A model generated the notes under the pieces. It searched no databases and was not told the DNA's origin. It saw nothing but the letters and a program-made list of their open reading frames with translations. Source: Paenibacillus pedocola (lineage in GTDB: Bacteria > Bacillota > Bacilli > Paenibacillales > Paenibacillaceae). From it: a stretch of DNA of 64,000 nt. The stretch spans positions 248,001 through 312,000 of the forward strand of contig NZ_CP134223.1 in assembly GCF_031599675.1 (NCBI RefSeq). Reading direction: 5' to 3'. The translations under genes and the position numbers were made by a program. Positions 10,138 to 50,531 of this stretch are shown here, one piece after another (position 1 is the first letter of the stretch; every line of letters starts with the position of its first letter).

Positions 10138-10926
10138 ATGCTGAGCGCTGAAGATGATAAGCTGAGCGATGCAGACCGCAAGTTAAGCGATGAAGACCAC
10201 AAGTTAAGTGATGAAGACCAGATCATGAGCGATGAAGACCATAAGTTAGGCAATGAAGATAGCAAGCTGAGCGATGCAGATCGTAAGCTGGCTATCCGGT
10301 ATGCCCCGCGCTTATGGTTCGACCGAAGCGAGCTGTTTTTCCCGGTCCGCTTCGGTGTAACTGTGCTGCGGAAGGACGGGGTTTCCCCCTCCTTCCGGCG
10401 CCGTCTGGCCGAGAACCGTCCCGAAGTAGAAGCGATTGTGGAATATGCGATATATTACGATTATGATATCCAGCATCTCTATGATCTGGAGCATGTGTGG
10501 GTATATATCGGCAGGAACGGGGAGGTGGCGGATGTTGAAGCCAGCTTCCACGGGAAATACCTGAAAGGGCTGCTCCGCGGCTCCGCCAATCTGAGCGGAA
10601 CGCGGGCCGTTCTGTATGTCCAGCCCGGCAAGCATGCCCTCTCCCCGATCCCTGAAGTCTTTGAGCTGCTGCCGGCCTTTGCCTCCTGCACGCAGGAGGA
10701 AGCCGGGGCGGACGGGCTAATCTTCGGGGATTTCTTCCGCGGCATTCTGGCTACGGACGAAGAGACAGACCGGCGGGTCCGGCGTTATCTGCAGACCTGC
10801 CGGTTCACGCCTTCTCTGTCTTATGAGGAATGGATATATGCTGACCGGGAGGATCTGTTCGTTTCCTGGAGCCAGCTGTTTGCAGAAATTCCCGGACGTA
10901 TCCGCAGGGAGCTGGGCCGGCTGTAG
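10138..10926 (+). CDS. Unrecognised protein with N-terminal heptapeptide repeats
   Basis: I do not recognise this 262-residue protein. Residues 2-50 are seven tandem heptads of the form LSDEDHK, encoded by seven 21-bp units at 10141-10287. This segment is strongly charged and probably helical or disordered. After it comes a globular part beginning YAPRLWFDRSELFFPVRFG, with VEYAIYYDYDIQHLYDLEHVWVYIG and VEASFHGKY. The pattern of YAP...W/Y...P near the start and EHVWVYI...SFHGKY later recalls the Vps62/DUF946-like fold, but this is only a resemblance. There is no signal peptide. It starts 5 bases after the isomerase gene with AGGGGGTAGGCGGT as binding site, so it belongs to the operon. Its role is unknown. 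Confidence 0.7.
   Translation: MLSAEDDKLSDADRKLSDEDHKLSDEDQIMSDEDHKLGNEDSKLSDADRKLAIRYAPRLWFDRSELFFPVRFGVTVLRKDGVSPSFRRRLAENRPEVEAIVEYAIYYDYDIQHLYDLEHVWVYIGRNGEVADVEASFHGKYLKGLLRGSANLSGTRAVLYVQPGKHALSPIPEVFELLPAFASCTQEEAGADGLIFGDFFRGILATDEETDRRVRRYLQTCRFTPSLSYEEWIYADREDLFVSWSQLFAEIPGRIRRELGRL
10141..10287 (+). repeat. Seven 21-bp coding repeats (heptapeptide)
   Basis: Seven units of 21 bp encode LSDEDHK-like heptads. Copies differ at several third positions (CTG/TTA, GCA/GAA), so the array is not a recent duplication in all units. Copy 6 is the most altered (GGCAATGAAGATAGC). Confidence 0.93.
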
Positions 10927-17500: not shown

Positions 17501-20273
17501 ACAGATCATTGAAGTGAATGATGATTCGCTGTTCACGACAGAAACGTATGACGGCAAAGATATTTCCGCTATCTGGGTACACGGGAACATTACAGACAGC
17601 AGCGTGAAGACACTGCAAGAGGCGGGATATTCCTATGATCAAAGCGACAATACGGTAAGCTTTTATGAATACGGCAGCCCGTTCATGTCCGGTTACTTTA
17701 AGGCCGATAAGAACGGTGACTTCCGTTACGGGATTACGAAGGAAGACTTCGCATCGGAACCTTATGAACTGCGGCTCTTCGGCTGGGACCCTGCAACGGT
17801 AGGGACGACCTGGCTGGGCAATAAATATGTGTATCTGACCCCTGATACCACTTATGCACTTACTGAACTGGACCGGGAAACGGTAAAAGTAGGTGATACC
17901 TTTACTGCGACGATCAACATGAATAATCTGAAAGCATTCACCGGAGCGGAGTTTACACTTCAGGAACTTACCGGGAACTTCAAACTGGAGTCGCTGGATG
18001 TCACGGATGAATTCAAGGCACTTGCGGCAAAGCAGGGGGCTACGGTGGAGCTCCAGGATGATATCAAAGATTTCTACAGCAGCGTAAAAGTAAAACTGCA
18101 AGGTGAGAACCTTACCGGGATCGATGGCGATGTACCGTTCCTGAAGCTGAAATATAAAGTAAGTGGCGACTCCTACTATAATAAGGTGGCCACGATTCTG
18201 GCTACGGATCTCTTCGTGACTCAAGCCGGGACGGAAGAAGCCTTATATACTCCGTCGTATACAACGGATTATATGGATTTTGTATCCAAGACTTCGCGGT
18301 TGTACGGCTTTGTAAGCCCGGAAGCCTTCCTGGTTAACGGGGAATATATGGAGTTTGGCAAGGATTACAGCAAGATGAATTTCGAAGTATTTGCGGAAAC
18401 TGAATCCGGCAAAAAATATACGGCAACCGTAGACCGGAATGCCCAATATGATCTTAAATCGATTCCTGTCTCAGACGAGGTAATCAAAGTAACCTTCAAA
18501 GCGCCGGGACACACTTCTATCAGCCGCTCAAGCACTGCTTACAAGATTGAAGACGGCAAGATGATCGGCTCGCAGCAGCTGTTATCCCTGCACGGCTCGC
18601 TGGCCGGGGATGTCAACGGCGATGAAGTTATCGACATTCTTGATTTGCAGCAGGCTGGACTGGCTTATAATACCAGTGATCCCAAGTCTGATATCAACCA
18701 GGACGGAACCGTGGATGATACAGATATCCAGTTTATCGTGAAGAACTTCCTGTCACTTGGCCAGAATGCCGCTGTAGATGCGGTTCCTCAGGACAAGATT
18801 GGCGGGATTGGCCTGGACGAGATGCTGGAACAAATCAAGAACGGCACGCCTAATAGCGGCGGCGGTACAGACAACGGCGGTGGAACCGACAACGGCGGCG
18901 GTACTGACAACGGCGGTGGAACCGATAACGGTGGTGGTACGGATAACGGCGGTGGAACCGATAACGGCGGTGGAACCGATAACGGTGGTGGTACTGACAA
19001 CGGCGGTGGAACCGATAACGGCGGCGGTACCGACAACGGCGGTGGAACCGATAACGGTGGTGGTACCGACAACGGCGGCGGTACCGACAACGGCGGCGGT
19101 ACTGATACAGTCAACGGCAATACTGGCAACACAAGTAATACAGGCAGCAGCAATACCGGAAGTGCTCCGGTTGTGGTTACTGAGCAAACTGTGCCGGCTT
19201 CCGATTTGGCGGCTGTCACTAACGGTGTAGCAACAGTAGACGGTAAAGCGGGCGTTCCGGTGAAACTGCCGGCTAATAGCGGGGAACTGCTCAAGGGCAG
19301 CAGCCTGGCAGTGCACACGGATGCCGGAATGGTAACCATTCCGTCTGGGGTGCTGCAGGCACTTGCAGCGCAGGCGAACGACAATAATCAGGGCAATATC
19401 TACTTGAATATTGCAGCTAAGGCGGCAACGCCTGCACCTGCTGAAGCGGGTGTGGCGCTGACAGCAGGCGGCGTTTATGATTTCAATCTCTTCTATAAGA
19501 AGGCGAATGGCGAAGAAGTGCGCCTTGCAGCCTTCCCGAAAGAAATTCAGCTAACGCTATCTTACAACAACAGTCTGAACGCCGATCTGTCAGGCATCTA
19601 TTATTTGAACGAACAGACCTCTGCCTGGGAATATGTAGGCGGCAAGGTCAATGCAGCACAGCATACCATCACCGCAAATGTAGGCCATTTCAGCACTTAC
19701 GGTGTACTGGCTTACGAGAAGAGCTTTACCGATCTTTCCGCTTCGCACTGGGCTACGGGAGCCGTTAAGGCATTGTCGGCGAAGCACATCGTAACCGGCC
19801 AGTCGGAAACGCTGTTCGCTCCGGATGCCAAGACAACACGGGCTGAATTCGTGGCGATGATTGTACGGGCCTTGGGATTGCATACGGGGGTAGAAGATAC
19901 GCAATTCAGCGATATTCCGGCAGATGCCTGGTATGCGGATGAAGTGGCTGCGGCGCATGGGGCCGGATTGGTTAACGGCCTTACGCAGACCGCGTTTGCA
20001 CCAGATCGGAGCATTACCCGTGAAGAAATGGCAGTTATTGCAGTTAAGGCTTATAAATATGCGGCAGCGAAACAAGCCGGGGCTTCGGCCAACACTCAGG
20101 TGTACAAGGATCAATCGTCCATCTCTTCCTGGGCGGCGGCGAGCATCCAAGAGGCAGCAGGCCTGGGAATTATGTCAGGGCATGCGAGCGGGCTGTTCGC
20201 TCCGAAAGCGGCGGCAAGCCGGGCCGAAACTGCGCAGACCATTTATAATCTGTTGACTGCGGCAGGCAAGTAA
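14535..20273 (+). CDS. Cell-surface subtilisin-like serine protease with dockerin-like and SLH domains
   Basis: This 1912-residue exported protease has a signal peptide ending about AFA-AP (residue 31), then an I9-like propeptide to about 200. The S8 domain has Asp249 (GILDTGID), His319 (HGTHVAG), an Asn in AAGNDGPA and Ser654 (GTSMATPH), interrupted by a PA-type insert at about 470-590, as in C5a peptidase-like enzymes. Beta-rich domains follow, then a dockerin-like pair of Ca-binding loops at about 1357-1415 (DVNGDEVIDILD, DINQDGTVDDTD), fourteen GGGTDN repeats, another domain, and three SLH motifs at about 1731-1911. SLH motifs bind pyruvylated cell-wall polymer, so it should be held on the cell surface. 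GGAGG precedes the ATG at 14535; upstream in-frame starts lack a site. All catalytic residues are present. Confidence 0.93.
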   Translation: MKRRTMNRLFSGTIAGGMLVSTLLAPAAFAAPSAGSKFTSEQAAAILKGLTPAQRQALEQISVSTGPVISPEINTESTELVNVIVQFIPEPAAVAGLTSAGKAQKFSLTSAEDQVEQSHEDFKAFIGKLKVNKLESRSAFAYNPSEISIYQEYREAFNGVAVTLPGTAVRDLASSGLVKKIWNDTTVQLPEDTVIPTDLTGEDNAADLTAGEEAADTSKLMMESFPVIGVDKLHDEGVTGKGIKVGILDTGIDYNHPDLTSVYHGYRKTDGENPAAVDPATVKGWDFIDNDADPMETTYKDWEAAGKPESDSEEYFTAHGTHVAGTIAGQQANDVDYAALGVAPDVELYSYRVLGPYGSGANSGIIAAIDKAVQDGMDVINLSLGSKLNDPLDPTSIAINNAMLAGVVSVIAAGNDGPAAGTLGTPGASALGITIGASSVPIAIPTVTASVYDAAVPAAADEESATVTDTVYQPLTMKLFGEEFNYEPASIVGTEQEIVYAGLGKAADFAGLDVAGKVALIARGEIGLNIKIKNAAKAGAIAAIIYNNTTGYIDNYLGEASGYIPTFQVEQAAGESLKKMAKPYISFTDVSDTVSQGDLLADFSSRGPVSGTDDIKPDLVAPGVAVFSTYPVYMNDPVNQSNYDIAYTRMSGTSMATPHVTGIAALILQKHPDYTPFDVKAALMNTSVDLNKDYSIYEVGAGRVDAYRAVHADTTVKVLDTTTSVSADNEYVEIADITGSLNYGSVYTEEGKTTSASKTLELDNGAENAKTYHLELELPSSAPITLSRDEVSVPAESSTTFDTQLLVNDSVPNGTYEGYIHVINEADAADVYQLPLLIRVSDKGLDYLEMDPPAISNNYVMHSYSNWVTTAYFSMKSPMETMDVYLKDYKTGEVLGFLGTVNTADLAVGKDIMLFNLFKGYVYPFTEDGSISKVSRFVPEGEYALEAFSIDADGESYQVESPMTLVDNTSPELSLKTTNAAGDTAVLTPQIIEVNDDSLFTTETYDGKDISAIWVHGNITDSSVKTLQEAGYSYDQSDNTVSFYEYGSPFMSGYFKADKNGDFRYGITKEDFASEPYELRLFGWDPATVGTTWLGNKYVYLTPDTTYALTELDRETVKVGDTFTATINMNNLKAFTGAEFTLQELTGNFKLESLDVTDEFKALAAKQGATVELQDDIKDFYSSVKVKLQGENLTGIDGDVPFLKLKYKVSGDSYYNKVATILATDLFVTQAGTEEALYTPSYTTDYMDFVSKTSRLYGFVSPEAFLVNGEYMEFGKDYSKMNFEVFAETESGKKYTATVDRNAQYDLKSIPVSDEVIKVTFKAPGHTSISRSSTAYKIEDGKMIGSQQLLSLHGSLAGDVNGDEVIDILDLQQAGLAYNTSDPKSDINQDGTVDDTDIQFIVKNFLSLGQNAAVDAVPQDKIGGIGLDEMLEQIKNGTPNSGGGTDNGGGTDNGGGTDNGGGTDNGGGTDNGGGTDNGGGTDNGGGTDNGGGTDNGGGTDNGGGTDNGGGTDNGGGTDNGGGTDTVNGNTGNTSNTGSSNTGSAPVVVTEQTVPASDLAAVTNGVATVDGKAGVPVKLPANSGELLKGSSLAVHTDAGMVTIPSGVLQALAAQANDNNQGNIYLNIAAKAATPAPAEAGVALTAGGVYDFNLFYKKANGEEVRLAAFPKEIQLTLSYNNSLNADLSGIYYLNEQTSAWEYVGGKVNAAQHTITANVGHFSTYGVLAYEKSFTDLSASHWATGAVKALSAKHIVTGQSETLFAPDAKTTRAEFVAMIVRALGLHTGVEDTQFSDIPADAWYADEVAAAHGAGLVNGLTQTAFAPDRSITREEMAVIAVKAYKYAAAKQAGASANTQVYKDQSSISSWAAASIQEAAGLGIMSGHASGLFAPKAAASRAETAQTIYNLLTAAGK
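18858..19109 (+). repeat. Fourteen 18-bp coding repeats (GGGTDN)
   Basis: Fourteen exact 18-bp units encode Gly-Gly-Gly-Thr-Asp-Asn (the last ends Asp-Thr). Codon choice alternates among GGCGGCGGTAC, GGCGGTGGAACC and GGTGGTGGTAC versions, so blocks of units have been copied together. The product is a flexible linker between the dockerin-like region and the C-terminal surface-anchoring part. Copy number probably varies between strains. Confidence 0.97.
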
Positions 20274-41500: not shown

Positions 41501-44500
41501 CAAGTGGGAGTTAACGAATTCAATGTTCAGGTCACAGCTGAAGATGGGGTAACTACGAAGAATTATGTATTGACGATTGTCCGCGAAGCCTCCTCCGATG
41601 CGGATTTAACCAATATTACCCTGTCCGGCAAACCGCTGTCCGGCGGATTTGACCGTGCAACTTCGACCTATTACGAATATATAGCCAACAATATTACCAG
41701 TATGACCGTTGCTGCGACTACAAGCGATGTGCAGGCCACCTATACCATCAACGGACTCGAGTCTGCAGGGGGTGTGCCGATTCCACTGGTTGTTGGCGAG
41801 AATGTAGTTACAGTAGTTGTTACGGCTGCTGATCAATCAACTATTAAGGAGTACACGGTAACCATCGTGCGCGCGGCTTCGTCCAATGCGAGTTTACTTG
41901 AGCTCACGATGACGGACTTATCGGATAATGCGATCGCTCTTTCACCGGTTCCGGGAACTTTCAGCTACAATGCTACGGTTCAGAATGAAATCTCTGTAGC
42001 CAAGCTCAGTCCGGTAGTTGATGATGCCAATGCCAGTACCTCAGTCTTTGTAAATGGGGTGTGGGTCGAAGACCTCAATGCCGTGCCTTTGACTACAGGA
42101 CTGAATGTGATTGAAGTCAGAGTTACAGCTCAAGACGGAAGTATGAAGATGTATACCATTAATCTGGTGAGAAACCCAAGTGCAGATGCTTCGCTGTATA
42201 ATCTGATCGTTTCTCCTGGCGAATTAACACCAGACTTCCAGCAAGGAATCAGTGATTATTCTGTCCAAGTGGACAATAGTGTGAGCAGCATGGATTTTTG
42301 GATCAATACGAATAATGAAGAGGCTAGTTACATCCTGAAAAAGAATGGAGCTTCCGAAGGTGTAACTGGAAGCCGCGTGACACTGGATGAAGGGACGAAT
42401 CAAATTACAGTAGAGGTTACCGCTGCAGATGCCAGTACTAAAAAAACCTATACAGTTACTGTGAATCGTGCGATTCTGCCGAAGGACTCCTCTCTGGCGA
42501 ATTTGACCGTCAGCTCTGTGAGAGGAACGGAGACTCTCAATCCTGAATTCTCGAGTGAAGTGTTCAAATACCTTTTATCGGTACCTTATGAAGTAGATCA
42601 GCTAGAACTGGCTGCGGTAAAAGGAGACCAGGATGCGCGGATTAGCGTAAATGGTGTCACTGTAGATCAGACGATGCCTATCCAGTTAGCAGAAGGCCTA
42701 AACATCGTAAACCTGAAGGTCACTGCGCAGGATGGAAAGACAGAAAGTGTCTATGAGCTGGATTTCACCCGGGAATCACGTTCTTCCAATGCAGACCTGA
42801 GCAGTATCAGCACAGATGCTGGAGTCTTGGATCCTGTATTTGATCCGGGGGTTATAAATTATACGGTAGAGGTAGAGAGTGATGTGAACTCCATCGTTCT
42901 TACCCCGTTAGCAGCAGATGCAAAAGCAAAAGGCCAAATCACGGGAAGAGACGGTGCTTTGCTGACTAATCTGGTTGAGGGCGACAATATATTTGATATT
43001 CAGGTCATTGCGGAGGACGGAACTGCAAAGACTTATACTGTCAATATTATTAAGGCTAAGCCTGTAGCGACACCGACGCCAACACCGACGCCAACACCGA
43101 CGGAAGAACCGACAGCAACGCCGACGGCAACAGCGGATCCTACACCAACACCTACAGCAGCACCGACGGCAACACCGACAGCAACAACAGATCCGACATC
43201 AACACCTACGGAAGAGCCAGTAGTAACACCAACGGTAGAGCCGACACCGGCAACGCCAGCGCCGGAAACACCAGCGCCAGCAACGCCGGTACCAGCAACG
43301 CCAGCGCCGGAAACACCAGCGCCAGCAACGCCAGCACCAGTAACGCCAGCGCCGGAAACACCAGCGCCAGCAACGCCGACACCGGCAACGCCAGCGCCGG
43401 AAACGCCAGCACCAGCAACGCCATCGCCAGCAACACCAGCGCCAGCAACGCCAGCACCAGCAACGCCAGCGCCGGAAACTCCTGCAGCACCTGTTGCGAC
43501 TGCATCGACAGAGGAGATTACCGTGAAGGTAGAATCAGGACAACTGGGCCAGGGTTCTGTTCTGGCGGAAACGGTCATCCAACGTACTCAGGATACAGGT
43601 GGAATTCTGCATGATGTAGTCAACTTCACAACGGAGCGTGTAGAGGAGGTTGTCCGGAAAATTACCGGGTCTTCGGATAATACGGCCCGGATTATGATCC
43701 CGGATGAGAAGGACCAGGTCGCGGATATCAATGTAAAGGTTCCTAAGGATGCCATTAAAACACTTGGTGACTCCAACGTGAATATGGAGGTCTTCACCGA
43801 GAATGTTAGAATTCTCATCCCGCAATCGTCATTAGACAATTTTACAGAAGATTTGTATTTCCATGTTGTACCGATCAAGGACCAGGCACTGCGCAAAGAG
43901 GTTGAAGACCGGGCAAGAATTGAGCGGATTGTCAGAGAAATAGCAGCGGACAAGCAAATTGATGTAGTTGCCCGTCCAATGACTATTGAGACTAATATGC
44001 AGAGCAGACCGGTGACATTAACCCTTCCGCTGCGTGACGTACAGCTGCCAGGTGACCTCCAGGAAAGACAGGACTTCCTGGCGAATCTTGTAATCTTCGT
44101 CGAGCATAGTGATGGAGACAAGGAATTGATTAAGGCAACCGTAGTCGATTACAAAACGGGTGAGCTGGGTTTACAGTTTAAAGTAAATAAATTCAGTACA
44201 TTCACCATATTGAACATGGAAGGCTGGGAGCAGTATCTTGCCTCAGCGGAGGCTGCACAACAGCAGCTTGCCGGTCACAAGGCATTCATCAACGGCTTTA
44301 CCGATGGAACCTTTAAGCCGGACCATTCCATTACCCGTGCGGAAATGGCTGCAATTCTGGCCAGAAACCTTGGGTATGATCCAGCAGCACCGTTGGCTGC
44401 CTCTTCCTACCCGGATGTGAAAGATAGTCATTGGGCAAAAGGCGTCATCGAATTCGTCAAAGCTGCCGGATTGATGCAGGGTAACGACAAAGGCCAGTTC

Positions 44501-47540: not shown

Positions 47541-48674
47541 ATGATTATTGGCGTACCTAAAGAGATTAAGAATAACGAAAACCGCGTAGCGATTACCCCT
47601 GCCGGAGTGGTCAGCCTGGTGGCTGAAGGACATAAAGTGCTGGTGGAAGCCGGAGCCGGAGTAGGCAGCGGATTCCTGAATGAAGAGTATGCCGCAGCCG
47701 GAGCTGAGCTGATTGCAGAAGCAGCTGCTGTATGGGCAGCCGCTGAAATGGTCATGAAAGTAAAAGAGCCGCTGGAAAGCGAATACGGCTACTTCCGTCC
47801 GGGTCTGATCCTGTTCACGTATCTGCACCTTGCCCCAGAACCGGCCCTCGCATCCGCATTGAAAGACAAAGGTGTCTTCGCTATCGGTTACGAAACGGTT
47901 GTGGATGGACGCACACTGCCGCTGCTTACACCCATGAGCGAAGTGGCAGGACGGATGTCCGTGCAGCTCGGCGCGCAGTTCCTCCAGAAGAACTACGGCG
48001 GACAAGGCATTCTGTTATCCGGTGTTCCCGGCGTCAGCAGAGGCAAGGTTAGCATTATCGGCGGCGGTGTAGTTGGCACGAACGCAGCTAAAATGGCCAT
48101 TGGCCTCGGGGCTGAGGTGACCATTGTTGACCTGAGTGCAGACCGGCTCCGTACGCTGGATGATATTTTCGGCTCGCAGATCAGCACGCTGATCTCGAAC
48201 CCTTACAACATTGCCAAAGCGGTCGCTGAAGCGGATCTGCTGGTTGGCGCAGTATTGATCCCGGGTGCAAGAGCACCGAAGCTGGTCACTGAAGAGATGG
48301 TCAAAGCCATGAAGCCGGGCTCCGTGATCGTCGATGTAGCCATCGACCAGGGCGGGATCGTAGAAACGATTGACCGGGTAACGACCCATGACAATCCGGT
48401 GTTCGAGAAACACGGCGTACTGCACTATTCAGTAGCGAATATGCCGGGAGCTGTAGCCAAAACCTCGACAATTGCTTTAACCAACGTAACGGTTCCTTAT
48501 GCACTGCAAATAGCCAATAAAGGTGTATTCCAGGCGATTGAAGACAATGCCGGCCTGAAGAGCGGCGTCAACGTAGCCAATGGCAAAATCACCTGCCAGG
48601 CCGTGGCGGAAGCTCTTGGGGAAGAGTACTTCACGGTAGAGAAAGCAGTAGAGCAAGAGTTCACTCTGATCTAG
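47541..48674 (+). CDS. ald: Alanine dehydrogenase
   Basis: This is a 377-residue NAD-dependent enzyme that deaminates L-alanine to pyruvate and ammonia, used in alanine catabolism and known to matter for sporulation in Bacillus. The family N-terminus [21 protein letters not shown] is intact. Lys75 (MKVKEP) and His96 (YLHLAPE), the pyruvate-binding and catalytic residues, are present, as are the NAD-binding [13 protein letters not shown] and the Asp in [16 protein letters not shown] lies about eight bases before the ATG. It is a single gene, followed by the 51-bp repeat array and a PucR-type regulator resembling AdeR. Length is normal. Confidence 0.97.
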
Positions 48675-48845
48675 TATGTGCTAAGCCCCGCAGAGAGAAA
48701 TGAATTGGGGATGAGCGGGAGAGGGGATAGCGGTGTCGGCATTCCGCAGAACCGGGGATATAACGGCATTTAGGAGCTTAAAGAGAGAGAACAGAGGGGT
48801 ACCTCCATTGCAGTCCGGTGAGCAATCACCGGGCTATATTTATTG

Positions 48846-49085
48846 GAGTGAGAGAGGGGAAAATCCCACTGATTTCGCCGAATGCGGGCAAAGGAGTGGA
48901 AATAGAGGGAAAAATCCCACTGATTTCACCAAATGCGGGCAAAGGAGTGGAAATAGAGGTAAAAATCCCTTTGTTTCCGTCGAATGCGGGTAAAGGTGTG
49001 GAAATAGAGGTAAAAATCCCTTTGATTCCGCCGAATGCGGGCAAAGGCGTAGAAATAGAGGTGAAAATCCCTCTAAACTCGCCGT
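48846..49085. repeat. Second tandem array of 51-bp palindromic repeats
   Basis: A first 48-bp unit (48846-48893) is followed by three 51-bp units starting at 48894, 48945 and 48996, and a partial fifth from 49047. Each unit has the core AATAGAGGGAAAAATCCCAC or a variant, then TGATTTC and the filler GCCGAATGCGGGCAAAG. The core matches the core of the 2.1-kb array, while the filler is unrelated. The frames are open in both directions but I see no gene. The array fills the middle of the 573-base gap between ald and the PucR-type regulator; the rest of the gap shows nothing clear. Confidence 0.93.
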
Positions 49086-49247
49086 CGATCTGGCAACAAG
49101 CGGATAATCAGGGCGAGCGGAAAGCCGATAAGCCAACTCATGTCAGGTTTTCTCGCATATTATCCTAGTCAGCCGTAAATCTGAGTAATATAATGTAAAC
49201 ACCTAAATGTGCAAGATTCGGTTATTCTTCGGGCTGGGGTGGGAACA

Positions 49248-50531
49248 TTGACAGAATCAGGGCCAACATTTGATCGTTTTTTTGACAGCATGGAATCCTT
49301 GGCGGATACCATTAGTGAATCGCTGCAGTCGCAGGTGACGATCGAGGACAGCAACCACCATGTCATCGGCTACAGCTCCCATCAGTTCGAGAGCGACGCG
49401 GCGCGCATCTCCACCATTATCGGCAAACGGGTGCCGAACACGGTCATCATCGGACTCCGCAAAAAAGGCGTCATGCAGCAGCTGGAGAACGCGGCGCATC
49501 CGATCCGCATTCCGGCGGTGATGGAGGTCGGGCTCGGACCACGGCTGGCCATGTGCATCAAGCACCAGCAGGAGATTCTGGGCTATATCTGGGTAGTGGA
49601 CCGGGGAAATCTCGCCGAGGGGTATGCCGAGGAGATTGTCGAGAAGGCGGCCGGCATCGCCGGGCGTTATCTGCTGAAGCAGCGCGGCTGGAAGACCAAG
49701 CAGGATAAGGCTTTCGAGGACTTCTTCTGGAAGCTGCTGACCTCGCATTATGATACGGAGCCGCGCATCCGCCAGGAAGCGGAAGCCTGGTCGATTCTGC
49801 TGCCGGAGAGCTACTACATCGGGGTGCTGGAAAGCGACAAGATCATCGACGAGCACTTTCTGCTGCGCTTCCGGCAGGTGATGGATGCCTATGCCGGGCA
49901 GCGTCTCCTGTTTCTGACAGCTGAGCATAACCGGCTGATTCTGCTGTTTTCTTTTGTTTTTCCGGTGGAGGGAACGGAAATTCTGTCTTCTTTTGTGAAC
50001 AAGCTGCTTGCGGATATGAGCCGCAGTGAAGGCTGCCGGCTGGCCGCCGGCTGCAGTCCCGGGTACAGGGAATATACCTCTGCCGCTCTGGCCTACCGCG
50101 AGGCACTGTCGGTACTGGAGATCAAGAAGCTGCTTCCCTACCATGCCCGCGGGCTGCTGCTCTACGAGCAAATCGGCTTTTGGGCTCACATTCCGGCCAT
50201 CATGGAGCAGAAGCGCAGCCGGACCCGCCGCAGTGCGCTGCTTCATCCGCTCAAAATGCATGACCGTGAGCATAAAAGTGATTTTCTCAAGACGATCGCC
50301 GTGTATTTAACGCTGGACGGCAATCTCAAGGAGTCGGCTGCTTTTTTGCATATTCATACCAACACCCTGATGTACCGGCTGAACCGGATCGCCGAAATTA
50401 CCGGCAGAAGCCTGAAAGAAACCGACTACCGTACCTCGGTTTATCTGGATATTCTCACGGAGGAAACGGCGCAGGTGAACAGCTGGTTTCAGTTTCAGGA
50501 GGATACAGGCAATGCGGCGTCCATGTCGTAG
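49248..50531 (+). CDS. PucR-family transcriptional regulator, AdeR-like
   Basis: This is a 427-residue regulator with an N-terminal sensory region (about 1-140), a GGDEF-like middle part, and the C-terminal PucR-type HTH (LKESAAFLHIHTNTLMYRLNRIAEITG, about 360-390). Its position beside ald recalls Bacillus AdeR, a PucR-type activator of ald. The likely start is TTG at 49248, after GGGGTGGGAAC; the frame extends to a GTG at 49209 without a site. The 18-bp palindrome at 47423 is a candidate target. It is codirectional with ald, separated from it by the 51-bp repeats. Confidence 0.85.
   Translation: MTESGPTFDRFFDSMESLADTISESLQSQVTIEDSNHHVIGYSSHQFESDAARISTIIGKRVPNTVIIGLRKKGVMQQLENAAHPIRIPAVMEVGLGPRLAMCIKHQQEILGYIWVVDRGNLAEGYAEEIVEKAAGIAGRYLLKQRGWKTKQDKAFEDFFWKLLTSHYDTEPRIRQEAEAWSILLPESYYIGVLESDKIIDEHFLLRFRQVMDAYAGQRLLFLTAEHNRLILLFSFVFPVEGTEILSSFVNKLLADMSRSEGCRLAAGCSPGYREYTSAALAYREALSVLEIKKLLPYHARGLLLYEQIGFWAHIPAIMEQKRSRTRRSALLHPLKMHDREHKSDFLKTIAVYLTLDGNLKESAAFLHIHTNTLMYRLNRIAEITGRSLKETDYRTSVYLDILTEETAQVNSWFQFQEDTGNAASMS

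Follow-up and report, generated by a model that had tools for sequence, protein, structure and literature searches.

The window, by which we mean the whole 64,000-nucleotide stretch of Paenibacillus pedocola DNA analysed here, contains a short tandem array (array 2) between ald, encoding an alanine dehydrogenase (47541–48674, + strand; PF01262/PF05222), and a gene encoding a PucR-type regulator (49209–50531, +; PF13556), the position that an earlier note on this DNA had given it. The array consists of five 51-bp units arranged head-to-tail (48850–49078, +), the fifth of which is a core only. TRF places it at 48853–49074 (period 51, 4.4 copies, 88% match, 0 indels), and its cores begin at 48850, 48901, 48952, 49003 and 49054, in exact 51-bp steps. 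All five cores lie on the + strand: the first, GAGAGAGGGGAAAATCCCACTGATT (48850–48874), and the fifth, AATAGAGGTGAAAATCCCTCTAAAC (49054–49078), belong to diverged edge units, with AATAGAGGGAAAAATCCCACTGATT (48901–48925), AATAGAGGTAAAAATCCCTTTGTTT (48952–48976) and AATAGAGGTAAAAATCCCTTTGATT (49003–49027) between them. The gap to ald holds a terminator-like hairpin (48812–48835, +; two found in 48600–49300, 0.7 expected), and the gap to the next gene a promoter-like TAGTCA-17-TATAAT (49166–49194, +; one found, 0.6 expected). The same repeat family forms a longer array of twelve 51-bp units elsewhere in the window (array 1; 2154–2765, +), which TRF places at 2141–2767 (period 51, 12.3 copies).

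Core type and register are common to both arrays, as the earlier note had stated. The joint 25-bp core pattern, allowing up to three mismatches, has 15 matches in the window (twelve in array 1, three in array 2) against 0.00 expected from 100 shuffles, so the shared core type is not a product of chance. The exact form proposed for it, AATAGAGGGA-N-AAATCCC, fared less well, being present in only one of the five array 2 units (48901), while of the other four, one has GAGAGAGGGG, two have AATAGAGGTA and one has AATAGAGGTG. Mismatches to the joint pattern number 4, 1, 3, 2 and 5 in the successive array 2 cores and 0 to 2 in those of array 1. The claim that the other half of the unit differs completely did not hold, as 14 of the 26 filler bases are identical between the two arrays, compared with a mean of 8.0 after shuffling (P 0.008).

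Long ORFs span both arrays (753–2798, −, 681 aa; 48818–49168, +, 116 aa), and a period of 51 would correspond to coding repeats of 17 residues. Both ORFs look spurious, and a Pfam search of the shorter one (116 aa) gave no match. No frame is open across all 21 arrays of at least three units (open counts by frame 12, 7, 1, 12, 13 and 2), and the sole frame with a synonymous excess (117 versus 97.5 expected, sd 7.5) contains 98 stops and is open in 7 of the 21. Given these closed frames and the existence of a 52-bp period, we rejected coding repeats, to which we assign next to no probability. The arrays thus give rise to spurious ORFs when genomes are annotated, and these may be mis-annotated as repeat proteins. 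Further tandem repeats in the window, at 18857–19102, 43070–43473 and 10142–10280, have periods of 18, 12/15/45 and 21/42 bp, respectively, and are possibly coding because these periods are multiples of three.

A symmetric core with locus-specific filler

The family was collected from the genome of the window (G000) with a sequence-only profile built from 39 units and the stretches around its matches. This yielded 28 loci with 156 units of the 51-bp family, while an 18-bp core pattern gave 38 matches over the genome against none for its reversed control, placing the core likeness above what palindromes would produce by chance. Neighbouring units are spaced at 51 bp (123 times), 50 bp (twice) and 102 bp (twice), so that 123 of 125 one-unit spacings are exactly 51 and unrelated periods were not encountered; a single outlier is the gap separating two weak units near the array at 931 kb. 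These weak family units lie about 2.4 kb downstream of that array (L034, 933848–933950), and the matching region of another genome, G022, carries full arrays in both gaps, one of GGG cores at 52 bp and one of GGC cores at 51 bp.

The core of each unit is two-fold symmetric, of the AATCARAGGNAWAAATNCCTYTGATT type. Fillers are alike inside one array and different between loci, and the proposal of a fixed core and spacing with locus-specific filler holds at the 28 G000 loci, in many genomes of the genus and at orthologous sites. Conservation is strong for core and spacing and weak for parts of the filler. Of 117 array consensuses taken from several genomes, 62 are non-redundant; these give the filler consensus cCGCCGaAAGcGGGCgaaatGGcGAA with 11.9 bits, compared with 34.9 bits in the core, and in 52-bp units the filler consensus amounts to 6.6 bits (33 non-redundant of 44). 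The idea of a family selecting for core and spacing is thus upheld, but its corollary that filler is free of selection is not entirely, since filler is weakly constrained. The filler may contain a second dyad: among the centres tested, unit position 34 scores highest in both classes, yet the signal is weak. Two arrays at 4.630 Mb and 5.165 Mb of G000 (L049:4612–5071 and L051:4867–5377) have much filler in common although they lie on opposite strands at a distance of 535 kb, which looks like the copying of one array to another locus. We also considered a CRISPR array and rejected it, as the filler, the counterpart of the spacer, is alike within each array.

Among 143 array consensuses from 13 genomes, the dyad register has an excess of complementary pairs of 79.7, compared with −16.5 to 16.9 for 12 other registers. 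Most of this excess comes from two pairs, 3-22, which occurs as C-G (40), T-A (37) and also G-G (41), and 9-16, which occurs as G-C (92) and C-G (28), both reached by 0 of 1000 shuffles; weaker pairs are 0-25 (2/1000), the borderline 6-19 (56/1000) and 5-20 (108/1000), the last without significant compensation, A-C (40) being more frequent than G-T (24). Because the shuffles leave relatedness in, this covariation pattern is evidence at the level of classes. RNAalifold on 39 G000 units returned two pairs, without covariation. Single cores differ in folding: good hairpins come from W1, from L041 and from a GGC array, poor ones from two units of array 2 (−3.4 and −0.1 kcal/mol; z −1.53 and 0.87). 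With pairing not compensated along the whole stem and with such poorly folding cores, we rejected a conserved hairpin RNA as the main constraint. These substitution and folding patterns agree better with a two-fold symmetric recognition site, altered in specificity in both of its halves, than with a hairpin under selection for folding; the palindromic core of the earlier note therefore behaves as a two-fold symmetric site and not as a conserved hairpin.

Unit length, core class and orthologous sites

Scanning one genome per species, of 84,980, with free gaps and periods of 36–66 gave at least 120 stretches, and the 80 listed with names, on which the following per-species counts are based, are all from Paenibacillus. 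Among these 80, the period is 51 in P. tritici (90/92) and P. phytohabitans (60/63) and 52 in P. typhae (19/22), PastM-3 (23/25) and DMB5 (9/13). Outside the genus, a single weak profile match was found, in one of 15 genomes. Within it, 100 genomes were searched for pairs at periods 51, 52 and 53, which occurred in 39, 27 and 5 genomes, respectively, the period being mainly 51 or mainly 52; the richest, G110, holds 234 pairs at 51. Under the pattern used, 61 of the 100 had no 51-bp pair, so the arrays are dispensable. Array-poor genomes are interspersed with array-rich ones in a gyrB tree (weak profile matches: G077 3, G100 6, G107 1, G076 0, G017 2 and G003 5). In this midpoint-rooted tree of 41 genomes, the six genomes of the 52 type group in a single clade (99/98); one more, G100, was labelled 52-type on a single pair. 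The sister of the clade is G096 (88/81), a 51-type genome, and genomes of the 51 type occur in both branches of the deepest split. A single switch of the GGG class, in the ancestor of this clade, is therefore the best placement.

The period is not a property of the genome, an idea that we dropped because the 52-type genome G022 holds 51- and 52-bp classes together, including arrays with a GGC...GCC core. Period follows core class rather than filler: among same-class array parts of G022, GGC parts are at 51 in 25 of 26 cases (the other being a 1:1 tie) and GGG parts at 52 in 12 of 14, the other two being at 51 (Fisher p 2e-7). Pair counts in this genome run in parallel (GGC 51 ×92, 52 ×2; GGG 52 ×57, 51 ×6, 53 ×1). 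The profile searches took about 150 candidates from each genome, so the 40 G022 arrays studied are a lower bound (GGG pairs in left orientation alone number 42); in 3 of 36 stretches (L220, L243 and L244) the profile matched and the core pattern gave no array. A free-gap scan of ten genomes (periods 44–58) listed 150 GGC pairs in five genomes of the 52 type, and 143 of these are at 51 (G044 36/36, G081 51/51, G084 32/38, G097 7/7 and, among those listed, G022 17/18). A further 14 GGC pairs, outside these 150, are held by G111, and exact GGC pairs were absent from G096, G099, G102 and G103 in the same scan. GGC arrays at 51 also occur in P. phytohabitans (9/10) and P. typhae (2/2). Outside the 52 clade, GGG arrays have a period of 51, so class, not the letters of the core, goes with unit length. 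A core letter code in which a TAAT tail means 52 was likewise dropped, as such cores are at 51 outside the clade. The fixed 51-bp period of the earlier note is hence dominant in G000 but becomes 51 or 52 with core class in the genus.

Both classes can lie close together. In G081 they occur inside 400 bp at 1.777 Mb, and in G022 array L251 (6815139–6815552) four GGC units at 51 are directly followed by five GGG units at 52. Another composite array, L227 (1213980–1214135), joins GGC to GGG units and has 51- and 52-bp spacings in one array. These composites look as if one class settles beside the other. In G084, arrays look loose (GGG pairs 51 ×23, 52 ×41, 53 ×5); the contamination of this assembly is 7%.

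Arrays persist at orthologous sites while their filler, and sometimes their period, differ. For 8 of the 28 G000 arrays, an array is also present in G022 where the flanking genes match on either side; matching here means a match by any of the three nearest ORFs per side, crudely called and not always adjacent, and orientation is the same in all eight. W1, L032, L034 and L038 are at 51 in G000 and at 52 in G022; the G022 site matching array 1 (2154–2765) thus has a 52-bp array. L031, L042 and L044 are at 51 in both, and L047, a single unit in G000, corresponds to a 51-bp array of nine units. Similarly, L037 is at 51 in G000 and at 52 in PastM-3 and DMB5. Over all genomes compared, 32 of 37 two-sided site pairs keep the same orientation and 5 are inverted (L048/L110, L053/L065, P. 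typhae L118 versus L223, and DMB5 L087 and PastM-3 L129 versus L230). Between close relatives, matching sites retain both the filler and the array edges, as array 2 and L116 illustrate.

These comparisons bear on the neutral explanation, in which all arrays would stem from a single ancestral 51-bp array with few indels, homogenisation keeping each of them uniform, and no trans-acting factor would be involved. It agrees with arrays that are homogeneous inside, with their locus-specific filler and with the weak common filler consensus. However, a class-linked period is hard to reconcile with it; five sites are at 51 in G000 and at 52 in genomes of the 52 clade, with different fillers; core pairs 3-22 and 9-16 have changed together, and the replication polarity described below is left unexplained. 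We consider this explanation improbable.

Gene context and replication polarity

Arrays are scarce between divergent genes. With genes called on both sides of 87 arrays by crude ORF calls, 39 lie between convergent, 43 between co-directional (32 with the genes, 11 against) and 5 between divergent genes, compared with 21, 90 and 65 of 176 control gaps (convergent enriched, p 7e-9; divergent depleted, p 8e-9). Proximity to a regulator, which the earlier note had taken as recurrent, was not found as a rule in these contexts; functional annotation of neighbours covered the two window arrays. The enrichment behind genes would suit RNA elements, that is, arrays transcribed as 3′ ends whose hairpins terminate transcription or stabilise the mRNA, a role suggested for REP repeats, and so would the good hairpins from W1, L041 and a GGC core. 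Against this stand the poor folding of two array 2 cores and the uncompensated pair 5-20, the terminator-like hairpin already present ahead of array 2, and an Rfam scan of the window that returned nothing at gathering score. Orientation, finally, does not follow the genes.

Arrays are oriented with replication. A protein that is presumably DnaA starts at position 1 of G000 and is followed by gyrB, and with the origin placed there, arrays point in the leading-strand direction in 14 of 14 cases on the right side and 10 of 14 on the left (Fisher p 1.5e-4); two of the four arrays opposing replication are hard to orient because they are nearly symmetric. In G022, all 40 arrays examined run with the leading strand, including 16 of 16 in convergent gaps and 5 of 5 at lagging-strand genes (crude gene calls). 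Further counts were made by eye, with chromosome sides split half a genome from the gyrB-placed origin. They gave 14/14 in G001, 8/8 in G078 and 6/6 in G050 from full listings and, among the matches listed, 21/22 in G043, 14/16 in G058, and 12/13 GGG and 23/24 GGC in G081, the exceptions lying at 3.30 Mb in G043, 0.69 and 4.00 Mb in G058, and 1.88 Mb (GGG) and 4.62 Mb (GGC) in G081. In total, 162 of 171 loci in eight genomes follow the leading strand, partly by eye among listed matches. As polarity is kept between convergent and at lagging-strand genes, direction follows replication rather than transcription, and RNA elements seem to us an unlikely account, if marginally less so than neutral drift.

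Selfish amplification is a weightier alternative that we nevertheless regard as doubtful. Here, a core-recognising nuclease or recombinase acting on single-stranded DNA at the fork would copy units of a measured length like a ruler, with no host function, filler being whatever adjoined the core and gene ends being safe landing places. This would account for polarity and class-specific length, for unit-number variation at matching sites and patchy distribution, and for the two-class composite L251 and the filler common to the distant L049 and L051. Yet sites and orientation are kept between G000 and G022 although the neighbouring proteins have diverged to 69–98% identity, the weak filler consensus would need another cause, and several array-rich genomes lack Y1 transposases, to which the enzyme of the best-known case belongs.

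A putative spacing-reading factor and known repeat systems

Array 2 belongs to a family of non-coding head-to-tail arrays shared by many genomes of the genus. We tentatively favour, with somewhat less than even confidence, the reading that their core and spacing are read, with replication polarity, by a putative class-specific and probably dimeric factor. One such trans-acting factor per class would bind successive cores, which at 51–52 bp (about five turns) would lie on nearly one face of the helix, allowing a cooperative and polar assembly. Selection on this assembly would retain core and spacing and leave the greater part of the filler to drift. The tie between orientation and replication suggests that what reads the assembly would be a machine travelling along the DNA, such as the replisome or a chromosome translocase, and not RNA polymerase. 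Counting against the factor are the variable copy number at matching sites, the lack of 51-bp pairs in 61 of the 100 genomes, the four G000 arrays opposing replication, the five inverted site pairs, the GGG arrays at 51 in G022 and outside the 52 clade, and the mixture of 51 and 52 in L227 and among GGG pairs of G084. Whether the arrays serve the cell or merely propagate is argued both ways, persistence in place speaking for service, and patchiness and copy-number change for propagation. A more speculative extension, which we think unlikely on balance, is an address made of two parts, core class and unit length: paralogous DNA-binding systems, polar with respect to replication and present on one chromosome, would be separated by GGC or GGG core and by 51- or 52-bp spacing, a 1-bp period change through many arrays in one ancestor having insulated them.

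Bacterial intergenic repeats are usually accounted for by transposition or RNA. A unit length kept to the base pair across loci with different fillers, moving with core class while replication direction is kept, points instead to a machine measuring DNA spacing, and strains with both classes allow this to be tested directly. As markers of copy number, the arrays should be useful too.

Among literature titles and abstract openings, we found no description of these arrays; passages of the P. vortex genome paper count 231 tandem repeats without giving sequences (PMC3012674). REP/BIME repeats, as portrayed in excerpts of PMC3733652, are short intergenic palindromes, mostly in convergent or unidirectional gaps, with sub-families differing in complementary stem residues, a tag at one palindrome end (GTAG and CGTC super-families) and rare head-to-tail dimers. 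The Paenibacillus arrays resemble them as palindromic intergenic repeats, 82 of 87 being outside divergent gaps (crude ORF calls). They differ in that neither GTAG nor CGTC tag appears in the consensus (62 non-redundant 51-bp and 33 52-bp units), and in their head-to-tail arrangement, period fixed at 51 or 52 and replication polarity. RAYT (Y1_Tnp, PF01797) had no match in G000, G011, G001, G043, G081, G078, G096 and G110, each with at least 30 array pairs; PF01797 matches occur in other array genomes. As tag, arrangement and transposase do not fit, we rejected an identity with REP/RAYT.

Two further systems share features with the arrays. MIRU-type mycobacterial minisatellites are intergenic tandem units of about 50 bp with variable copy number, a description that also applies to the Paenibacillus arrays; we know of no symmetric core common to MIRU loci with different fillers, nor of a class-linked period. 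KOPS/SRS and Chi are 8-bp non-palindromic sites present in very many copies and oriented with replication. The Paenibacillus arrays differ from these in being tandem 51-bp units at a few dozen loci, and are like them in being oriented with replication across the chromosome.
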